A DNA stretch of 64,000 nt, taken from assembly GCF_949628265.1 (NCBI RefSeq), contig NC_088786.1:35671681-35735680 (forward strand), in the 5' to 3' direction. The stretch is from Cloeon dipterum (taxonomy: Eukaryota; Arthropoda; Insecta; Ephemeroptera; Baetidae). A program made the position numbers and the translations under genes. The notes beneath the pieces were generated by a model, which had not been told where the DNA came from, did not search any database, and saw nothing but the letters and a program-made list of their open reading frames with translations. This document shows, in pieces, positions 41,959-59,794 of the stretch (position 1 is the stretch's first letter; every line of letters begins with the position of its first letter).

Positions 41959-43227
41959 ATGTGCTGCTCGTCTTGCTGCTGCTGTTTCCCGTGCACGCCT
42001 GGCAAAATAAGATGCATTCTTATTTTCTTCAACATTCTCCTGGCGGTAAACATGCAAAATATAATAATAATTATTCCTAAGCTAATTTGATTTGATCGTA
42101 TTTAGGTGGCTGGTGGACTTTTGGTTTTTGTTGGCGCTGTTATACAATGGAACATATCCGAATACGACCAATTTATCAGCAGTATTAGCGCCTTTGTGAG
42201 TCAAACCGAACGATTCAATACAATTATTCACAGCATCAATCGATTGCATGTATATTATAGCTGTCTGCTCCAGGCTATCTTCTAATTATCGTCGGCGTCG
42301 CGCTGTTGATAGTGGCCATTGTTGGATTCTGTGGAGCGGTTAATCATTCTCATTGGGTCGTAAGTAGCGCAATTTAGCTTCATACTCGCTCGACGCAATT
42401 AATTGACTTCGATTATAATACAGTACATTTTGTCGCTCGTCATTGTGATCGCCCTGCAAGTGGCTGGCGGAGTGCTTGCGTTTGCAATTCAAGACAAAGT
42501 CGACCAGGCAATAATGACAACGATGAAAGACTCGATGGTTGTTTACAATGCACAGACACCACAAGGACAAGTTGCAAGAGAAGGCTGGAAATTCGCCCAG
42601 CAGAGCGTACGTTTTTCTTTTATAAATCTATCACACCCTTTTTCGGTTCTTTGCCGCAAAAGAGATTAAATCGTCTGCCGCCACTTGAGCAAAAGGATCA
42701 AAACGTTTGTGTAAATACAAATAGCCTCTTCTAACTGGCAACCTGACCCGACCCATGTATTCTTGACAGCTACAAAATAGTAAAAAACAATAAATCATAT
42801 TTTTTCTAATACATAAGGTATAATATCCTCCCAACAACAGCTCCCAACAAGCGATAATAAAACTCTTTATGTAATTATTTCGCCTTTTCTTCCAGTTCAA
42901 GTGCTGTGGAACTGAAAGCCAAAGCGACTGGGACAGCATTTTAGGGCTTGGCCTACGTCCAGGTTCGTGTAACTGTGAAATTGGTTCAAACAATTGCGAT
43001 GCGCAGGGAAGATATTCAAAGGGATGCTTTAGCAGAGTGAGCTATTGGTTTAGGCTAATAGAAAGCGCGCTTGGCTATCTCGCGCTCTCTTTCGCCCTCT
43101 TACAGGTATGGTGCAACACCTCAGAAATAAAACCAAAGTCTGAACAAATTTTAATTCGCAGCTCATATCAGCGATCTTCATTTGTCTGTGCAGAGGAACG
43201 TGCAGCTGTCTGAAGTGTTGTTGTTAA
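41959..43227 (+). CDS. Tetraspanin 1 of the cluster (Cys-rich at both ends)
   Basis: Exons 41959-42045, 42106-42195, 42261-42359, 42424-42606, 42896-43105 and 43162-43227, all phase 0, encode 244 aa. Layout: short N-tail, TM1 across exons 1-2, small loop, TM2 (YLLIIVGVALLIVAIVGFCG), TM3 (exon 4 start), large extracellular loop with FKCCG, RPGSC and KGC (six Cys in all), TM4, short tail. Tetraspanins organise membrane microdomains. The N-terminus MCCSSCCCCFPC and the tail CLCRGTCSCLKCCC are unusually Cys-rich, which suggests heavy palmitoylation. TM2 ends GFCGAV in place of the usual GCCGA. It is first of five tandem paralogues. Confidence 0.9.
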
Positions 43228-43676: not shown

Positions 43677-45945
43677 ATGGGCTGCGGCACAACAACAATT
43701 AAATATCTCCTGTTCATCTTTAACCTGATATTTTGCGTGAGTAACAAGTTTTAAAGAGAGTTTTTAACTAAATTCGATGACCGTCAGCTCGGAGGCCTCG
43801 TCATTCTTGTTCTTGGCGCTGTGATTCAATGGAATATAAACTTTTATGAGGCCACTCTATCAGAAAAGGTATTATTAGTTTATCTTTGCTACAAAAAGCT
43901 TTTGAATTGCCCTCCGTAAAGAGAGTAATCACAATTAAGCTTTTTTAAACTCATAGGTCACGGTGCCTGCGATAGTGCTGATAGTCGTTGGAAGCATAAT
44001 TTTCTTTACTTCTCTCCTTGGATGCTGCGGTGTGTTGCAAGAATCAAATTGCATGATCACCACGGTGAGAATAATTAATTATGTTCACATACAGTTACAA
44101 GAACAAGTTTTTTTTCTAGTTTGCAGTTATTTTGATAATATTATTTTTGATTCAAATCGTCGGAGGAGCTCTCGCATTTGCCTTTCAAGATGAATTCAAC
44201 GAATTTCTGAGAACTAGCTTGAAGAACTCCATGAAGCAATATAACGAGCCGAACGCAGAAGGAGAAATTGCTCGGCAATACTGGGACACAATCCAAAAAG
44301 AGGTATTTAATTTATATTTCGCAATTTCTTTCCCATCCAAGTGAAAAAATAATCCTTTCAATTATTAAAAATTGATGTTTGAAATTTACTAAAAATAAAA
44401 AATTTAGAAATAATATTTGGTGTCAAAATTGTTGATATCAGCGATAGAGCTAGCGTACAAAAAGAGGAATGATACTGCAAAAGAATGGAAAATGCTTGTA
44501 GCCAATGCATAAATTCGTCCCTTAGAATTCAGTTAAAGTCAAAATTGACCTAAAAAGCACTGTAATTTTTTGAGAAAATTGGCTGGAAAGTTAGCGTGCT
44601 TTTCACATGGTAATGGCTGTCTCCTTACTTGAAATCCGATTTAATTTCAAAACCAAGAGTTTCCCCAATAAGTGGCATACACCGTTGGACAGATCTCGAC
44701 GAGAGGAATCGAAATATGCCAAGAAAATATGTTCAAGCGCTGTAAATTTTGGAGAAAATTGGCAAAATTTGAATTTTTACTGTAGGAAGGTCCTTTATTA
44801 TTATTGCAAATTATTGAACAAATTGTTTATCGATCAGTTGTTTATGGCATCCAACAATTCAAATAATTTTCAATTGTTGCCCTGTATAATTTCACTTTAA
44901 ATTGGGTGAGTGTTATTTTTAATTGGAGATCAGCAGTTTTTACCGCAGAAATACCGCCTACTGCTTTCTAATATCTCAATATTTGAAAATGTATCGTTAT
45001 TATTGTTGAATTGATGTTAAAATTCAAAATTTTCCTTAATTTCAACGAGCCCGTTGGCTCGCATTGTTAAGCCATTCTCAGCGGGAGGCACCGGCGCCGA
45101 CTCACGACTTGCTGGTTTTCACACCTTCCCAGCGGCTTCAGGGAAAAATGTCTGGCGTTTCAATAAAAGACCGAAAAGTGTGGGAAGCCGAAAAGATTGA
45201 CACATGGGGCCCAAGCTCCTCTGCGGCCACTCGGGCCCCATGTTATCCGGTTGGCGGTGTTATTAAGACCTCTCAAAATTAAAAAAATAAATAAATAAAA
45301 AGAATATAAGCCTGGCCGGATACATAATTTTGCCTTGGGTAAATATCTCGCTCTATTATCTTGATATTGATTGTTTCCTGCTACTCGTATAGATATGAAA
45401 ATGTGCAATAGAGTGAAAATAGAATGAGATAAAATGTTTGCTGTTTCTCACACGGTAAATAATATGCTGCTTGCAGAATGGCTTGGCATAAGGAAATAAT
45501 GGAAATAAATTACACCACATGTAGTTTATTAAAAGCCTAGCTGTTAATCCGACTCCAGTTTGTGTATGTGTATGATTCTCCTAATAATTAAAAATTACTG
45601 TCTCTCGCAGTTCAAGTGCTGTGGCGTGGACGGGCCGACCGACTGGACGATAACTCTGTCAAACAAGGGTATTCCTCCAGCATCGTGCGGCTGTGATGAG
45701 CTTTTTGGAAACGGCTGCCTTGCCGGTATCTACACCAAAGGCTGCTATTCAAAGCTGAGTCAATGGCTAAAAATGACGCAAAACGTGCTAGGTGGAGTTG
45801 CCATAGGCGTTGCAGCTGTAGAGGTAACAAAAAATGCCCTTTTTCCCCCTCGTCCTTGACTGTTCTAATTGTCAATTTTCAGTTGATTGGAGCTGTATTT
45901 GCCCTGTACTTTGCCAGCTCGATCCGAAGGCGGTATGGATCGTAG
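43677..45945 (+). CDS. Tetraspanin 2 of the cluster
   Basis: Exons 43677-43736, 43788-43868, 43957-44064, 44120-44302, 45611-45823 and 45883-45945, all phase 0, encode 235 aa. The start MGCGTTTIKYLLFIFNLIF is a typical tetraspanin N-terminus and TM1. TM2 ends LLGCCGVLQESNCM. TM3 is VILIILFLIQIVGGALAF. The LEL has FKCCGVDGPTDW, PPASCGC and KGCYSKL, with six Cys. TM4 is followed by the basic tail RRRYGS. The exon pattern is identical to tetraspanin 1 and includes an intron between TM1 and TM2 exons that genes 3-5 lack. Intron 4 (44303-45610) is expanded by a family C element and a diverged family D copy; the other introns are under 100 bp. Confidence 0.92.
44461..44902 (+). mobile_element. TIR repeat family C, copy 2, in tetraspanin 2 intron 4
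   Basis: It starts AAAGAGGAATGATACTGC and ends near TAATTTCACTTTAAA, the diverged inverse of the start. It carries the same pseudo-frame (44607-44900) as the copy at 7822. Confidence 0.75.
45047..45275 (+). repeat. Diverged, internally deleted family D copy in tetraspanin 2 intron 4
   Basis: It begins CCCGTTGGCTCGCATTGTTA like the full-length family, then skips to the GGCGCCGACTC block and a variant tail. It shares ATGTCTGGCGTTTCAATAAA with the segment at 49817-50010, so these two form an older subfamily. Confidence 0.6.
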
Positions 45946-46164: not shown

Positions 46165-46362
46165 AACTCGAGGCCGACTCGCTACTTGCTGGTTTGCACC
46201 TTTCCAGCGTGCGTGATTTGGCTTCACGGGACGAATGTCTAGCGTTTCAATGCAGTCCTCGGTGCGGAGGCAAGTGTCCCTTGAGTGGGCTGGGTCCCTG
46301 AAATGTGCGGCCCGGTGTCTCTTCCTTCCCGGCCCTCGGAGAGGGACAAAAAGAGCAAAAAA
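46165..46362 (+). repeat. 5'-truncated SINE-like family D copy
   Basis: It starts at CCGACTCGCTACTTGCTGG and ends CAAAAAGAGCAAAAAAATTG. A gap removes part of the 3' third. Confidence 0.75.
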
Positions 46363-47605: not shown

Positions 47606-48046
47606 TTTTTTTTTTTTTTTTTGCTTTGCTCTTTTTATCCCTGTCCTCTCGGACCGGGAAGGGCGCGCACTTCACTGGCACGAATGCTGAAACCCGGGTC
47701 CCAATAACACCGCGAACGGATAACATGGGCGCACCAGGCCGCACATTTCAGGGACCCAGCCCACCGAAGGGCCACTTGCCTCCGCACCGAGGACTGCATT
47801 GAAACGCTAGACATTCGTCCCGTGAAGCCAAATCACGCATGCTGGAAAGGTGCAAAGCAGCAAGTAGCGAGTCGGCGCCGGTGCGCCTCCCAGCCCGTTG
47901 AGCAATTTGAGCATTTCGAGTCACTAAACTAACCACTTTTTTGCCATTTCTGACATTGGGTAACCAGTATTAGATCTCCGAACTGCTCAAATACCTCTCA
48001 TTGCTTTGACACTCCTGAGAGTGCCTTAACAATGCGAGCCAACGGG
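47606..48046 (-). mobile_element. SINE-like retroposon, family D, full-length inverted copy
   Basis: Read on the minus strand it goes from CCCGTTGGCTCGCATTGTTA to a tail of about 17 A residues (T run at 47606-47622). It contains the 33-bp internal block. The long pure tail suggests a fairly young insertion. Confidence 0.8.
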
Positions 48047-50447: not shown

Positions 50448-51473
50448 ATGGGAGCGGCATCAGTGATCAAATATTTGCTATTCTTTTTCAACCTGCTCAT
50501 TTGCGTAAGTAGAAAAGGTTCATTTTTAGAGTGCGCGTCATTAAATTTTCGCTGCTACAGACTGGAGGTCTAATTTTGCTCGGCTGCGGAGTTTTGCTTC
50601 ACATCGAGCTCGCCAAACAGGACGGGGCCCAATGGAAATACATAGCCATTGGTTTCATCACGCTAGGAGCAATTATCTTTGCGATAGCGTTCCTGGGGTG
50701 CTGTGGCGCGCTGCGAGAGTCGACTTGCATGCTCAACACGGTAAGCCAATTTTCACTTTTCCGGCAATATTTAAAACAAAATCAATCGCATCTTTACAGT
50801 TTGGAACTCTGCTGCTGTTTATATTCCTGATCCAAGTGATTTGCGCGGTTTTGCTGGTTGTCTATGAAAATCAATTTATCGATGGAGTCGGAAAAGCTTT
50901 GAAAATTTCTCTCGGACAGTACAAGGAAAAGCCCGACGCAAAAGAATTCTGGGACAATATCCAACCATCGGTGAGTAAATTAAATTTCAAGTCCTTGGAG
51001 AAACCCGCCGCGTATATCCTGTTGTTCTTTAGCTTGCATTAAATACGAAAAAACACTGTCAACCACGAACGGATATAAAAAGGCTTCAATACTAAAATAA
51101 AAGTTTTTTTTTTTGCCTTGTAGCTGGGGTGCTGTGGCAGCGCCAAACCATCAGACTGGCAAGAAAGCGGTTTGCAAATTCCAAGTTCTTGTGAATGCAA
51201 AGAAAGCGATGGAAACAAGAAGTGCGGAAATGTTGGCAACCAGAAAATTTATACTGAAGGGTGCTATAATAAGCTGTTGCACGCCGTGAAAAGCTCCATC
51301 ATCATTGTCGCCGCAGTTGCTTTCGCTGTCGCCCTCGTTGAGGTGTGCATTTATTTATTTATTTTGATAAAAACTGCATAATCCACTTGAAAATTTGATT
51401 GCAGCTGATCGGGGCAATATTCTCATTTCGTCTTGCTTCCACTATCAGAAAGAGAGAGCATGGGTTCTACTAG
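50448..51473 (+). CDS. Tetraspanin 3 of the cluster
   Basis: Exons 50448-50504, 50561-50740, 50800-50970, 51124-51342 and 51405-51473, all phase 0, encode 231 aa. TM1 is in MGAASVIKYLLFFFNLLIC and exon 2. TM2 ends FLGCCGALRESTCML. TM3 is LLLFIFLIQVICAVLLVV. The LEL has LGCCGSAKPSDW, PSSCEC and EGCYNKL with six Cys. TM4 is followed by the basic tail RKREHGFY. Exon 2 corresponds to exons 2 plus 3 of genes 1 and 2, so one intron differs between the two subgroups. It is a canonical tetraspanin and its partners cannot be predicted. Confidence 0.92.
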
Positions 51474-52458
51474 AACGAACTTCAAATTCCACAGAGCGAA
51501 AGATTTGTAATGAAGTATATATATTATTATGTTAAAAATTTAAATGTCTATTTCCCAATAGAAAACATAATTAGAATTATTATACTGATTGAGGATATCC
51601 TGTTATACAGTATGCTTATAATTTACACAAAACACTCCATTGTAAGTTGCAATGTAACGTGTTGTATAGATTAATTGGTTGTAACGTACGTAAATAATTA
51701 AAAAACAGATAATTAACTTTAGTTTCTTAATATTTCCGTGCCGTTTAAATCAGTGACAAAACGTTGAAAGCTTTGAGCAACGAATAATATTTACACATTT
51801 AATCGATATAAAGCGTTATTGCATCTGTCAGTTATCAGTTAAAATTTGTTAATGCAATATATATTTTGTGTTCCTTATAATTATCTTGAATTTTTTCAGC
51901 GAAATTAAGCAAGTTACAAGTTTAGTTTTAAATTTCTCAAGATTCATTTCGTAAACTACAAAAGTTTCCACTCTACAAACAGTGCCTATTCTAGGAAATT
52001 TAGTAATTAAAAACCATTATAAAAATAAACCAGATTTTATTTCTACACATTTCTCTGAATTCTTACTGAGAATAAATCCAAAATTCAATCAATTAATGTC
52101 GCGCACACATAAGTTCACTCAAACCATTTAGATGTGTATGTGATTGCGTGTGCTCTCTTCCTCTCCCTCTGGCCAGCGCCGGCACGCTTGATGACACGCT
52201 TCGGGATTTCTAATCTCTTTCCATATCACCGACAATGAGATTGCTTCAAACTCAAGGACAGTCCAGGAGCCTTGTGAACATCTCCGCTACACCTACCTTG
52301 GGGTTGTTTGTCCCTGGACAAACAATGAGAAAAAGAGAAAAATGTGGAGCAGGAGCAGTAGCATTGTTTGCGACGCGTGCTGGCTGAGCCGAGCACGCGC
52401 CGCTGACTACCTGCGAGCGTGCGAGCCACCTGCCGAGACCAAAACCTGCCTGCGCGGA

Positions 52459-52896
52459 TTTTTTTTTTTTTTTTTGCTCTTTTTATGCCTGTCCTCTCGG
52501 ACCGGGAAGGGCGCGCACTGCACTAGCACGAATGCTGAATTCCGGGTGCCAATAACACCGCGAACGGATATTATTAGCGCACCAGGCCGCACATTTCAGG
52601 GACCCAGCCCACTGAAGGGCCGCACTTGCCTCCGCACCGAGAACTGCATTGAAACGCTAGACATTCGTCTCGTGAAGCCAAATCATGTATGCTGGAAAGG
52701 TGCAAACCAGCAAGTAGCGAGTCGGCGCCGGTGCGCCTCCCAGCCCGTTGAGCAATTTGAGAATTTCGAGTCACTAAACTAACCACTTTTTGCCATCTCG
52801 GACATTGGGTAGCCAGTATTAGATCTCCGAACTGCTCAAAATACCTCCCATTGCTTTGACACTCCTGATAATGCCTTAACAATGCGAGCCAACAGG
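52459..52896 (-). mobile_element. SINE-like retroposon, family D, full-length inverted copy
   Basis: It is a close match to the copy at 47606, with the A tail (T run about 52459-52475 on the plus strand) and the 33-bp internal block. Confidence 0.8.
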
Positions 52897-53704
52897 CTGG
52901 TTCATTTCATGTTTAATTAACCCTTAATTGAAAATTATTTTTCCTGTTCTTATTGCAAATTCAATAAACTGGTTCTTTAAAGATTTTGGGATGCAAACGT
53001 ATTTTAATTATTTGCCTAAGTTTCCTCGAAAATAAAACAGCTTAAACTTGTATGCATAATAAACCGATCCCTGTTTGCCTACTGAATATCGTAATTCATC
53101 TTATAAAAGGAGAATTTACCTCACCATTAGCAGATAATAGAGACCCTTACTGGGTTGAATTTTTATTGCCCCATGTGGTGGAACTACCACGAAGACGTCT
53201 AAAGGAAAAATATTACCCATTGTCAGAGACTCCCCTTTGTCGTCAAAGAATAGTGCGTTGAACCTTTCCAGGCAGGGTGCAGAAAAAGTATAATTTCACT
53301 CAGGTTCGTTCACCTTATTGATGCTCTTTTCACTTTAATATTACGAAATTTATTTATGACAAAGTTATTCCTTAAGAAGGTTTAATATAGTTGAAAAAAG
53401 TAGATAAATCTGTTTTTGCAGTTTCGTAACCTAAAAGGAAGAAATCTGTACGGAGAGGCATAATTGAAGGCTCAAAAAGACTTTAACACCCCGAGTTGCC
53501 GAGTTGGAGTGGAATCGAAATTCCAACGACGCGCGTCATGCAGAAACTATGAAAGTTGCTCGGATTTTTAAAAACCAAACATTTTTGAATCAGCACTTCA
53601 TGACGAGTCTAAAAAAGTCGACCATTTTTGGATAATTTCGATTTTTTTCTGGTTTTTCCAGGTGGGCACTTGGGAAATCGCGCGCAACACGAAAAAAAGG
53701 CATT

Positions 53705-54036
53705 TTGAGCAGTTCGGAGATCTAATACTGGCTACCCAATGTCAGAGATGGCAAAAAGTGGTGGGTTTAGTGACTCGAAATGCTCAAATTGCTCAACGGG
53801 CTGGTTTGCACCTTTCCAGCATGCGTGATTTGGCTTCACGGGACGAATGTCTAGCGTTTCAATGCAGTCCTCGGTGCGGAGGCAAGTGGCCCTTCAGTGG
53901 GCTGGGTCCCTGAAATGTGCGGGCTGGTGCGCTAATAATATCCGTTCGCGGTGTTATTGGGACCCAGGTTTCAGCATTCGTGCTAGTGCAGTGCGCGCCC
54001 TTCCCGCTCCTCGGACAGGGATAAAAAAATAACAAA
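53705..54036 (+). mobile_element. SINE-like family D copy, short subfamily
   Basis: It begins within the unit at TTTTGAGCAGTTCGGAGATC and ends in CTCGGACAGGGATAAAAAAA. It lacks the 33-bp block (CAACGGGCTGG is joined directly to TTTGCACC), as does the copy at 59391. Confidence 0.75.
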
Positions 54037-54190
54037 ACGGATTGCACGAATGTTTTTATTTTTTCATGAGATGTTAATGAAGAACCCAGCTAAATTTTGG
54101 CTATCTTGAAATTTTTTCTCGATATTTTTCAATCTCTTTATCTTTATCATTGTCGTGGCTATTCCGAGACAGGCATTCGAAAAGATCCCA

Positions 54191-54636
54191 ACTCGCTACT
54201 TGTTGGTTTGCACCTTTCCGGCATGCGTGAATTAATATTTCGCGGAAAAGGTATAGAGTTTGAATAAAAAGACCCCGGTGCAGATGCACGGCGATCCATT
54301 AAAATGGTCCCGGGCATATGTGCTATATGCCTCAAAGTTATTGTTTGCGGTGTTATTGCGGGCGCACATTGCTCTTTGCCGGCTGTGGCTCAAGCAGGCG
54401 CACCATTATTTACTTCCTGAAATAAACCGGAAACCGTCACATGAAAAATTATATTTTGAACAAATTTCGTGAAAATCTGGAGTTTCTCTGCTTTTTGCTT
54501 CCTGCGTTTTTTGATTAAAAGCCATTTTTTAATATCAGATTGGTTGATAAAAAGTTGTGTTTCGCTCTTTTCAATTTATTATTTGACTTGCCCTTGCTGG
54601 AGTCCGTGCCTATCTGAAAGCCAATTTAGCCTGGCA
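54191..54636 (+). repeat. Upstream region of tetraspanin 4, duplicated upstream of tetraspanin 5
   Basis: It contains a family D fragment (CTCGCTACTTGTTGGTTTGC), then unique sequence including GCGGGCGCACATTGCTC, GGCTGTGGCTCAAGCAGGCG and TTTTTGCTTCCTGCG, leading to the start codon. The same order is found at 56683-57126 before tetraspanin 5. It probably holds the promoter of gene 4. Confidence 0.8.
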
Positions 54637-55259
54637 ATGGTTTGCAAAAATTGTATTGTGGTTTTCTTCACTATTCTCACCACCGTAAGAATCCATTTAA
54701 AACTCCTGAATTATTTAGAGATGAGATCGTGTGTTTGAAAAGGTCAATGGATTAATTCTATTTGGCGTCGGAGTAGCCGGGATTACAAAGGAGAAGCCGG
54801 ACACTGCTCCAGAGTTTGTGTTGATAGTTCTTGGAGTTACCGTATTCGCAATATCCTTCCTCGGCACTTATGGTGCGATCAAAGACTCTGAGTTCAAGCT
54901 CAACTCGGTAAGGCTTTAGTTTTGACATAACTACTTGTAAATTGATTTAACTGGGCGTTCACAGTTTGGGTCAGCCATGATGGTAATATCCTTTTTCCAA
55001 ATCATTACTGCAATCGTGCTGTTTACGAGGAAGGACGGCCTAGGAACTGCGGCAATTACGCTGTTCACTGCAGTAATTCAGGTTTGTATACTTAAGATCC
55101 ACTCCAAGCCCTTAAAAATATAGGAAATTTGTCTATCAGGTTGTTGGTGCTGTTCTGGCCTTCGTCGTGGCAATTAAAGGGGAAATCAAAATATGCCACT
55201 TTGATTCCGGACCTGTTGAAACCCGGCCCAATGAAACCAGGCCCAGTAACACTGCATGA
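54637..55259 (+). CDS. Tetraspanin 4 of the cluster, lacking the large extracellular loop
   Basis: Exons 54637-54684, 54743-54907, 54965-55081 and 55140-55259, all phase 0 with GT..AG sites, encode 149 aa; the other cluster members have 213-244. TM1 (CIVVFFTILTT and exon 2), TM2 (FVLIVLGVTVFAISFLGTYG) and TM3 (SAMMVISFFQIITAIVLF) are recognisable. Only TRKDGLGT then separates TM3 from TM4 (AAITLFTAVIQ-VVGAVLAFVVAI). The CCG-bearing LEL is gone. Compared with gene 5, its third exon joins the start of gene 5 exon 3 to the end of exon 4, so one deletion removed the LEL and an intron without breaking the frame. TM2 also has GTYG for GCCG. The tail carries a PVETRPNETRPS repeat. It could be a new four-TM protein or a decaying gene; intact splicing favours expression. 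Confidence 0.75.
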
Positions 55260-56290
55260 TGAAAAACCAAAAAATAGTCATTTTGGGGCAAAATGGTTAA
55301 TTTAACCATAGTTTAACGCAGACCCACCGTGTTTTTCGGAACCTTGTCTAATTCATTGCTTCAAGATGACGTTAATAAAGAAGTTTCGCTTGCTATGACA
55401 GTTTTAAAAGTACTGCCATTTATTAATCCAGCATGTATCAAGAAAAAATGCCATTCTCTGTGTTCTACGTATCGCTTGCTAAATCTGTTTCGCATAATCA
55501 TAACTATCTAGATTGATAGGTTTAAAATAATTGCAACTCTACTGCTTTGGGAGCACAGGTGTAATATCTCATATTTTATTTGGTAACCAATAAAACGCTA
55601 TTGCTTCATATTGAAATGCGGAGTTTAATTGCTAGAGACCATCCCATAATATCGAGAGTTGAATCCCACAGCTCCGTCTTTGAAAATTGATTATAAATTA
55701 ATAATTTAAAAACCAGCCTGTTGGCTCGCATTGTTCAGGCATTCTCATGAGTGTCAAAGCAATAGTAGATATTTGAGCAGTTCGACACACCAAGACAATT
55801 TCTTCTCGGACCTTATAGCACTATTTCTTTATCGCAAAAACAAATAAAATCGTCTGTTTCCCCGGTGCAGCTCTTGCCTTCAAACTAACGTGGAAAATAA
55901 AAGCGTGATAAAAAGATTGCTATCTGAACTGCTTTGGTAGCAGAGGCGTAATATCTTATATTTTATTTTGTAACCAATAAAACGCTGTATTGCTTCATAT
56001 TGTAATGCGGAGTTTAATTGCTAGACCATGTCTTAATATCAAGAGTTGAATCACACAACTCCATTTAGATAATTAATTTAAGTACGTTTGGAGTGATTTT
56101 CACCACCAAAAAGGGATATGGGGAAGAAGAATCAACTCGACATTTCCAGCAATTAAGTAGGACTGAGCACTAAGTGAGAACACACGAGCACACACAATTA
56201 GGGGAGAGAGCGTCACACCACACCTTAATATCGAGTTGAATCACGCAACTCCGTCGTTTGAAAATTTATCATAGATTAATTCTTCCAACT
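55260..56290 (+). repeat. Downstream flank of tetraspanin 4 with repeated segments
   Basis: After the gene, ATGTATCAAGAAAAAATG and CATAATCATAACTAT match the flank after tetraspanin 5. A unit with ACCAATAAAACGC, TGCTTCATATTG and GCGGAGTTTAATTGCTAGA occurs at 55545-55705, again at 55933-56075 and partly at 56215-56290. A fourth relative is at 58960-59110. A short family D fragment lies at 55713-55780. No exon was recognised. Confidence 0.65.
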
Positions 56291-56682
56291 CAAGAGAGAT
56301 TGGTAGCTTCACATAAAGCTGCAGTATTTTTTCAGTTCAAATGGTGGTGTAATAGGCATATCACAGTTGATACAAAAGTTGAAAATAGATAAATTTACTC
56401 CATATTTCAAAATAAAGCATGCACATTGAAACGAGCAAAGCTTAACGATGCAGTTCCAGTCGCATGCTGCACAACCCCCCGGGTAACTTTTAATTTTCTC
56501 TGTTTAAGGACTTGAACTCGTATTTTTGAGTGCTTTCCTTGGTTAGCTTGCTGTGTGAGAATCCAAGCAATGTCTGGGTTTTGGGTCGAGTGCGGACTGA
56601 TTTGCGCCTAAATTTGAGTCTTTTGCATTGCAATGACGCGAGTTCACTAGGATTTTGGGATGATTGCGAAGACTTTCCGACT

Positions 56683-57126
<444 letters not shown>

Positions 57127-58053
57127 ATGGGTTTTGCGAAAGGTCTGCTGATTTTCTTCAACCTTCTAATCAGCGTAAGAATCCATTTGAACATTTGATT
57201 TATTATGAGATTGTGTGTTTCGATATAGATCAATGGATTGATTATACTCGGCGTTGGAGTATTCTTGAAGGTTCAGAAGGACGTGGCCACTGATGATTGG
57301 AATGCTCAAGCGATTGCGTTCATCTTTATTGGAGGGACCGTCTTCGCAATATCTTTTCTCGGCTGCTGTGGTGCAGTCAAAAAGTCTAAGTGCATGCTTT
57401 ACACGGTATGGCGAGAAAAATATCTTGGCGCATTTAGTTTGACATAATTTTTCTGTGATAATTTTGCAGTTTGGGTCAATCTTGATTGTAATATTCATTT
57501 TACAAACTATTATTGCAATCGTGCTGTTGACGAGCAAGGACAAAATAATTGAACATTTGAAATATGATGTCTTTGCTAACGCTACAGCTGAAAACAGAGA
57601 AAACGAAGTAGTGAAAAGCATCCAAACGAACGTAAGTTTTTTTCCTATGTTTTATTTGAATGCCAATGAAAAACGCTTAAAATATGAATAAATTAAATCA
57701 TCTTTTTGTCGCTTTTCCAAATAATTACGAACTTTACAGTTGAAATGTTGCGGAATCAATGGGACTGAAGACTGGGGAACTGTGCCTGATTCCTGTAAGT
57801 ACTCAGAACCAGGAGAAAACGAAAGTGTAGTAGTATACACTGATGGATGTGGCGAAAAAATCGAAGCTCTCGTGTCAAAATACAGCAATAATGCCGGAGC
57901 AGGTGTGATGGTCACTGCATTCATGGAGGTTTGTGCTAATTATGGTCCAGTGTAATTCCTGTAAATTATCGGAAATTTGTCTAACAGGTTATTGGTGCTC
58001 TTCTAGCCTTCTACGTGGCTAAAAAAATAGTTAAGGTTAATAGAAAGAAGTGA
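57127..58053 (+). CDS. Tetraspanin 5 of the cluster
   Basis: Exons 57127-57174, 57229-57405, 57470-57631, 57740-57928 and 57988-58053, all phase 0, encode 213 aa. TM1 is in GLLIFFNLLIS and exon 2. TM2 ends SFLGCCGAVKKSKCML. TM3 is ILIVIFILQTIIAIVLL. The LEL is short with four Cys (LKCCGINGTEDW, PDSC, DGC) and has N-glycosylation sequons at NAT and NGT. TM4 and a Lys-rich tail (KKIVKVNRKK) follow. It is the closest paralogue of the LEL-less gene 4, sharing upstream sequence, exon layout and 3' flank. Four Cys places it in the simplest LEL class, unlike genes 1-3 with six. Confidence 0.92.
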
Positions 58054-59390: not shown

Positions 59391-59794
59391 AGCCCGTTGG
59401 CTCGCATTGTTGAGGCACTCTCAGGAGTGTGAAAGCAATGTGAGGTATTTGAGCAGTTTGGAGATCTAATACTGGCTACCCAATGTCAGAAATGGCAAAA
59501 AAGTGGTTAGTTTAGTGACTCGAAATGCTCAAATTGCTCAACGGGCTGGTTTGCACCTTTCCAGCATGCGTGATTTGGCTTCACGGGACGAATGTCTAGC
59601 GTTTCAATGCAGTCCTCGGTGCGGAGGCAAGTGGCCCTTCAGTGGGCTGGGTCCCTGAAATGTGCGGCCTGGTGCGCCCATGTTATCCGTTCGCGGTGTT
59701 ATTGGGACCCGGGTTTCAGCATTCGTGCTAGTGCAGTGCGCGCCCTTCCCGGTCCTCCGGTCCTCGGACAGGGATAAAAAGAGCAAAAAAAAAA
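59391..59794 (+). mobile_element. SINE-like family D, complete copy of the short subfamily
   Basis: It runs from AGCCCGTTGGCTCGCATTGT to GATAAAAAGAGC plus nine A residues. It lacks the 33-bp block. A CGGTCCTC duplication is visible near the 3' end. Confidence 0.82.

Follow-up and report, generated by a model that had tools for sequence, protein, structure and literature searches.

A loop-less tandem tetraspanin duplicate with a probably repeat-derived tail in Cloeon dipterum that may still encode a four-helix membrane protein

The analysis of a tandem tetraspanin cluster in Cloeon dipterum points to a gene, g4 (54637-55259, plus strand), which would be a tandem duplicate without the large extracellular loop (LEL) and with a rewritten tail. 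On the sequence evidence its most likely product is still a small membrane protein with four helices, a reading to which we give about an even chance. This reading draws on an intact gene structure, on deletions that keep the reading frame and on membrane segments that have stayed uncharged through extensive sequence change.

The tetraspanin cluster and a dispersed copy

The window, i.e. the whole 64,000-nucleotide stretch analyzed (C1:35671681-35735680, devoid of any N), contains five tandem tetraspanin genes, g1 to g5, all on the plus strand. Gene models were built for g1 (41959-43227) and g2 (43677-45945); g3 (50448-51473) is intact and served as outgroup; g5 (57127-58053), the intact neighbour of g4, has five exons and encodes 213 residues including a LEL with its CCG motif. 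The genes g3 and g5 share with g4 their gene layout, intron phases, TM1-TM3 sequence and a common origin, but both keep a CCG-containing LEL, the GCCG motif in TM2 and a short basic tail, and g4 differs in all three. Copies of a dispersed repeat, GCACCTTTCCAGCATGCGTGA...GTCTAGCGTTTCAATGCAGTCC, were spotted by eye in both orientations between and beyond the cluster genes (46180-46340, 47640-48030, 52480-52780, 53770-54030 and 59480-59780).

The genome searched amounts to 190 Mb, nearly all of it in five contigs of 33-43 Mb. It gave 48 matches to the tetraspanin profile, among which genes were modelled for this cluster and g6 was also inspected. The latter, found by a DNA search of the genome, is a second copy of the g4/g5 unit at about C1:9.818 Mb on the minus strand, 26 Mb away (approximately C1:9817.6-9819.4 kb, within locus L028, C1:9815500-9821500). 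This dispersed copy is decayed: it carries both loop exons, but GG stands at the exon-3 acceptor, the exon-3 donor has been lost, and no last exon was detected behind exon 4.

Structure of g4 and of its predicted protein

The gene consists of four exons, all in phase 0, separated by three GT..AG introns and encoding 149 amino acids followed by a TGA stop. Exon 1 (54637-54684) provides the ATG and the first part of TM1 and ends at the donor gtaaga. Exon 2 (54743-54907, acceptor aaag, donor gtaagg), which was aligned with g5 and g6, encodes the remainder of TM1, a shortened small loop and TM2. Exon 3 (54965-55081) contains TM3, a short turn and the first part of TM4, and unites parts of ancestral exons 3 and 4 (g5 counterparts 57470-57541 and 57884-57928). 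Exon 4 (55140-55259) contains the end of TM4, a new C-terminal tail and the stop. Four hydropathy peaks were found (residues 7-25, 41-59, 72-90 and 104-122, mean Kyte-Doolittle 2.09-2.63). Exons, splice sites, phases and membrane segments are thus as an earlier note on this DNA had described them. The note had also counted about eight residues between TM3 and TM4; the short turn without a LEL stands, and its length is about ten residues (TRKDGLGTAA), with no cysteine and no CCG loop.

The Pfam Tetraspanin profile (PF00335) matches g4 with 48.2 bits against a cut-off of 32.1, over profile positions 2-103 of 225 only; it matches g5 with 153.3 bits over positions 2-223. Solved structures matching g4 are two CD81 chains, tetraspanin-15, CD53 and CD9 (E 6e-5 to 0.026), and these matches are confined to residues 5-101, which correspond to the first three helices. 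No remnant of the LEL was detected by tblastn in 51500-57126 (five cluster proteins as queries, that of g1 being an incorrect model, E up to 1), in line with the complete loss of the loop claimed earlier.

Tetraspanins typically carry polar residues in TM1, TM3 and TM4, and cysteines near TM2. In g4 the Asn of TM1 is replaced by Thr, the Cys pair of TM2 is lost (GTYG, compared with GCCG in g5 and g6, a loss already pointed out in the note), the Gln of TM3 is kept and the Glu of TM4 is replaced by Gln. A disabled frame, start or splice site was not found in g4; g6 shows several such defects. The descent of g4 from a tetraspanin is indicated by DNA homology to g5 and g6 over exons, introns and flanks. 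Since g4 combines this descent and a profile score above the cut-off with four hydropathic segments, but lacks a LEL with CCG and disulphide cysteines, its predicted product is most aptly described as a loop-less four-helix protein derived from a tetraspanin.

Loss of the large loop and trimming of the small loop

The junction of the loop deletion was located at 55036/55037; as the aligned blocks were placed by hand, the exact point is uncertain by a few bases. In g5 the counterpart of the missing piece spans 57542-57883; of these 342 bp, 90 belong to exon 3, 108 make up the intron and 144 belong to exon 4. That a single in-frame deletion fused ancestral exons 3 and 4 and preserved their phase, as proposed in the note from a comparison with 57470-57631 and 57740-57928, is supported by the alignment: these intervals are g5 exons 3 and 4, and the event is polarised by g6 and g3. 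Judged in this way, loop loss is the derived state in g4, because g5, g6 and the outgroup g3 all carry the loop.

To the earlier description we added two changes, a repeat-supplied C-terminal tail and stop (see below) and the in-frame removal of 12 bp from the small extracellular loop (54806/54807), visible as a 12-base gap that g4 alone shows in the alignment with g5 and g6. The two deletions in the coding sequence both leave the reading frame intact. In an exon-by-exon search of the genome with the g4 protein, a fused TM3-TM4 exon was found in g4 only; this uniqueness falls short of proof because the search proceeded exon by exon and only the best candidates were scored. One candidate for a second loop-less gene, at C1:9989078, was rejected: its weak match over TM2-TM4 (E 1.37, 24% identity, three stops) is probably fortuitous.

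A tail probably derived from a repeat

The last exon of g4 overlaps the relic of an interspersed repeat (55199-55346, plus strand) with inverted ends CAGGGTTCCGA..TCGGAACCCTG and an internal deletion, which would supply g4 with its 19 final residues and its stop. The region from about 55257 to 55357 matches three other places with 74-77% identity. A search with one of the copies (L027) placed the family at no fewer than 26 sites besides g4, i.e. at least 26 (e.g. L033-L050), and the copy in L033 is 266 bp long with the same inverted ends. Alignment of the relic with 15 copies indicates that homology reaches both ends of the element, g4 having an internal deletion. On the left the relic can be delimited only approximately, near 55199, and this limit comes from the multiple alignment, pairwise matches there being weak (E 0.72 and above).

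This insert is absent from g5 and g6. The displaced end of the ancestral gene was recognized at 55371-55385, where g4 aligns with the VNRKK-stop region of g5 and a polyadenylation-like AATAAA occurs at 55374. Because the counterpart of the g5 ending has been displaced to about 55371, the insert sits within the ancestral last exon, so that a repeat origin is probable for the 19 final residues of g4 and for its stop. The relic lies at a Jukes-Cantor (JC) distance of 0.211 from the family majority over 114 columns; the corresponding values for the 15 other copies are 0.065-0.238, these copies being nearer the majority by construction, since they define it. Taken as a rough clock, this distance suggests that the insertion is old. 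Further downstream, the 3' flank of g4 is locally duplicated (55523-55692 and 55909-56078, 84% identical).

Substitution rates

Changes unique to one gene were counted over the 109 codons common to g4, g5 and g6. At codon positions 1, 2 and 3 they number 29, 23 and 21 in g4, 7, 4 and 8 in g5, and 6, 6 and 9 in g6. The counts for non-coding DNA, in the same order of genes, are 16, 17 and 16 in 238 upstream sites, 7, 4 and 4 in 52 sites of intron 1, 12, 7 and 1 in 40 sites of intron 2, where the alignment is poor, and 8, 31 and 9 in 150 downstream sites. NG86 estimates for the g4 branch are dN 0.34 and dS 0.244, with a non-coding K of 0.106 (281 sites of upstream DNA and intron 1). The resulting ratios, with ranges from 600 bootstraps, are dN/K 3.2 (2.05-5.2) and dS/K 2.3 (1.1-4.2), and dN was not above dS in 13% of these bootstraps. 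Because dS exceeds K too, the excess may come in part from conserved or gene-converted flanks rather than from positive selection. The upstream DNA of g4 (54340-54636) is much less diverged than the gene body, with 16 unique changes in 238 sites versus 73 in 327 coding sites, which suggests conserved control DNA or gene conversion.

At codons identical in g5 and g6, g4 has 38 replacement and 5 silent changes (binomial P 0.037 against the numbers of sites). When positions 1 and 2 are set against position 3 and compared with g5 and g6, there is no significant excess (Fisher P 0.15). A three-taxon codon model gives g4 an omega of 2.04 (2dlnL 4.44 against omega 1). With g3 added, omega depends on how the other branches are tied: the best tree gives 1.6 (2dlnL 1.97) or 6.4 (8.1), and another tree gives 1.9 (3.9) or 2.0 (4.6). 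Rooting with g3 is poor, since in the free model the synonymous branch of g3 reaches saturation (length near 10) and one omega runs into its bound. None of the fits giving g4 its own omega placed it below 1. Tajima counts against g3 for g4 and g5 are 36:16 at positions 1 and 2 and 13:12 at position 3 (total 49:28, chi-square 5.73); for g4 and g6 the total is 45:31 (chi-square 2.58, not significant). In summary, purifying selection on the identity of residues is not seen in g4, and the evidence for an omega above 1 varies (2dlnL 2.0-8.1). The intact g5 has likewise been little constrained since the split (branch dN 0.075 against a non-coding K of 0.092).

Retention of membrane character and of an open frame

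The membrane segments of g4 contain no D, E, K or R, although 35 of their 76 residues differ from g5. These windows were chosen on g4 and favour it; the test was repeated with g5-defined windows (74 residues, mean hydropathy 2.22 for g4 and 2.39 for g5), and the conclusion was unchanged. Stop-free neutral change was simulated 2000 times from g5 up to all 67 g4-g5 differences: the runs acquired 6.9 charged residues on average, only one of them had none, and none reached the hydropathy of g4. Runs started from g6 agree. The 67 differences include changes on the g5 branch, 53 being nearer the share of the g4 branch. At 53 differences, with g5 or g6 as starting point, P is 0.001-0.0015 for charge and 0.002-0.005 for hydropathy (0.001 and 0.005 from g5). 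At half the differences (33), P is 0.0095 for charge from g5 and 0.034-0.058 for mean hydropathy (0.058 from g5). When a neutral stretch is begun from g4 itself, the segments stay uncharged with P 0.106 at 26 amino-acid changes and 0.053 at 33; a neutral phase over up to about the last half of the amino-acid changes of g4 would pass the membrane test.

The absence of stops taken alone is weak evidence (P 0.21-0.61 at 0.067-0.25 substitutions per site). Under neutrality, a frame free of stops and frameshifts would survive together with intact start and splice sites with a probability of 0.002 at 0.085 and 0.00075 at 0.106 substitutions per site, given an indel rate that comes from a hand count, 11 g4-specific non-coding entries (9 of the 11 not multiples of three) being taken as 10 events with 80% out of phase and three entries bordering the insert at 55359 being omitted. 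Membrane character and the survival of frame, start and splice sites are both improbable under neutrality, so g4 was preserved as a protein of four membrane helices through most of its time as a separate gene. This selection may predate the loss of the loop. The earlier suggestion of a gene on its way out agrees with the lack of purifying selection on residues; chance survival of the frame over the whole branch is unlikely.

Known loop-less tetraspanins

Isoform 2 of human CD53 (PMC6773723) is a splice form without exons 6-7 and lacks the entire LEL; it is reported to traffic to the cell membrane nonetheless, and in natural killer cells its mRNA amounts to 5% of that of the conventional form. 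The authors of that paper suggest that loop-deletion forms might enter tetraspanin domains and disable them, and the same text mentions a dominant negative effect of a CD81 mutant lacking one loop helix (PMC6773723). CD53 isoform 2 and g4 are alike in being tetraspanins with the LEL removed, but the former results from exon skipping in a gene that mainly makes the full form, whereas for g4 the search detected no remnant of the loop and the tail, too, is new. A CD9 mutant lacking EC2 has reportedly been engineered. In the CD81 and CD9 mutants the loop or parts of it are likewise deleted, but these are laboratory constructs and not natural genes. A tsp-7 deletion of C. elegans was considered and set aside as a match to g4, since it loses TM2-4 as well (PMC12127881). 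A gene-encoded loop-less tetraspanin was not found in our literature searches, with most subscription papers outside their coverage.

A live gene or a recent pseudogene

What counts for a live gene is the intact frame, start and six splice dinucleotides, the in-phase deletions, the uncharged segments, the old-looking repeat and the precedent of CD53 isoform 2. Against it stand the omega of 2.04 with a dN that is not firmly above dS, the Fisher P of 0.15, the hydropathy P of 0.034-0.058 at half the differences and the lost family-typical residues. The main rival, to which we assign a probability somewhat short of one half, is that g4 died recently: selection would have acted until the loop deletion, and a stop would be missing by chance. 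The almost even spread of unique changes over codon positions (29, 23 and 21 in 109 codons) is as expected for such a gene, and so are the loss of a whole domain and of conserved residues, the repeat in the last exon, the pseudogene state of the sister copy g6 and the probability (0.106 at 26 changes, 0.053 at 33) that neutral change starting from g4 leaves the segments uncharged. Death across the whole branch is unlikely in view of the membrane and frame tests. Relaxation alone, moreover, would not lift dN over the non-coding rate (dN/K 3.2) unless the flanks are constrained or converted, a proviso to which the dS/K above 1 (2.3, 1.1-4.2) lends weight.

Two other explanations appear far less probable. 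An assembly error or an allele private to the sequenced animal is very doubtful: g4 shares 72% DNA identity with g5 over the matching stretch, a divergence that makes a collapse between the two unlikely, and three distinct structural changes, all specific to g4, speak for a genuine locus with a long history of its own. Slightly more remote is the idea that read-through transcripts splice the first half of g4 to exons 3-5 of g5 and so restore the loop; the two neighbours lie on the same strand and all their introns are in phase 0, but g4 has a last exon of its own and the AATAAA at 55374.

The preferred reading, that of a live loop-less gene, supposes that g4 arose as a tandem duplicate of a cluster tetraspanin, that one in-frame deletion removed its LEL and that an inserted repeat rewrote its cytoplasmic tail. 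We infer that g4 is transcribed and that its product would take the normal topology in the membrane, with its helices packing against full tetraspanins. Unable to bind loop partners, the protein might dilute or tune tetraspanin assemblies, an action already suggested for human splice isoforms that lack the loop. That it could join such assemblies by its helices is suggested because CD53 isoform 2 reaches the membrane without its LEL and because the authors of that work considered a disabling of tetraspanin domains.

Significance

The specificity of tetraspanins is attributed mainly to the loop, and the helices and tails are regarded as contributing to their assembly. Tentatively, and with a chance that we put below even, g4 may be a natural, gene-encoded tetraspanin that works permanently without a LEL, with the membrane bundle alone under selection and a tail taken from a repeat; as part of this tentative proposal, its residues would be replaced at least as fast as under neutrality, with the membrane character retained. 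If this is true, g4 would give a minimal core of natural origin with which to ask what the helices can do alone. Its position, with helices and no loop, beside an intact sister gene offers a direct test of the bundle by itself. It also illustrates the stepwise remodelling of a tandem duplicate, by deletion of the large loop, trimming of the small loop and acquisition of a probably repeat-derived tail.
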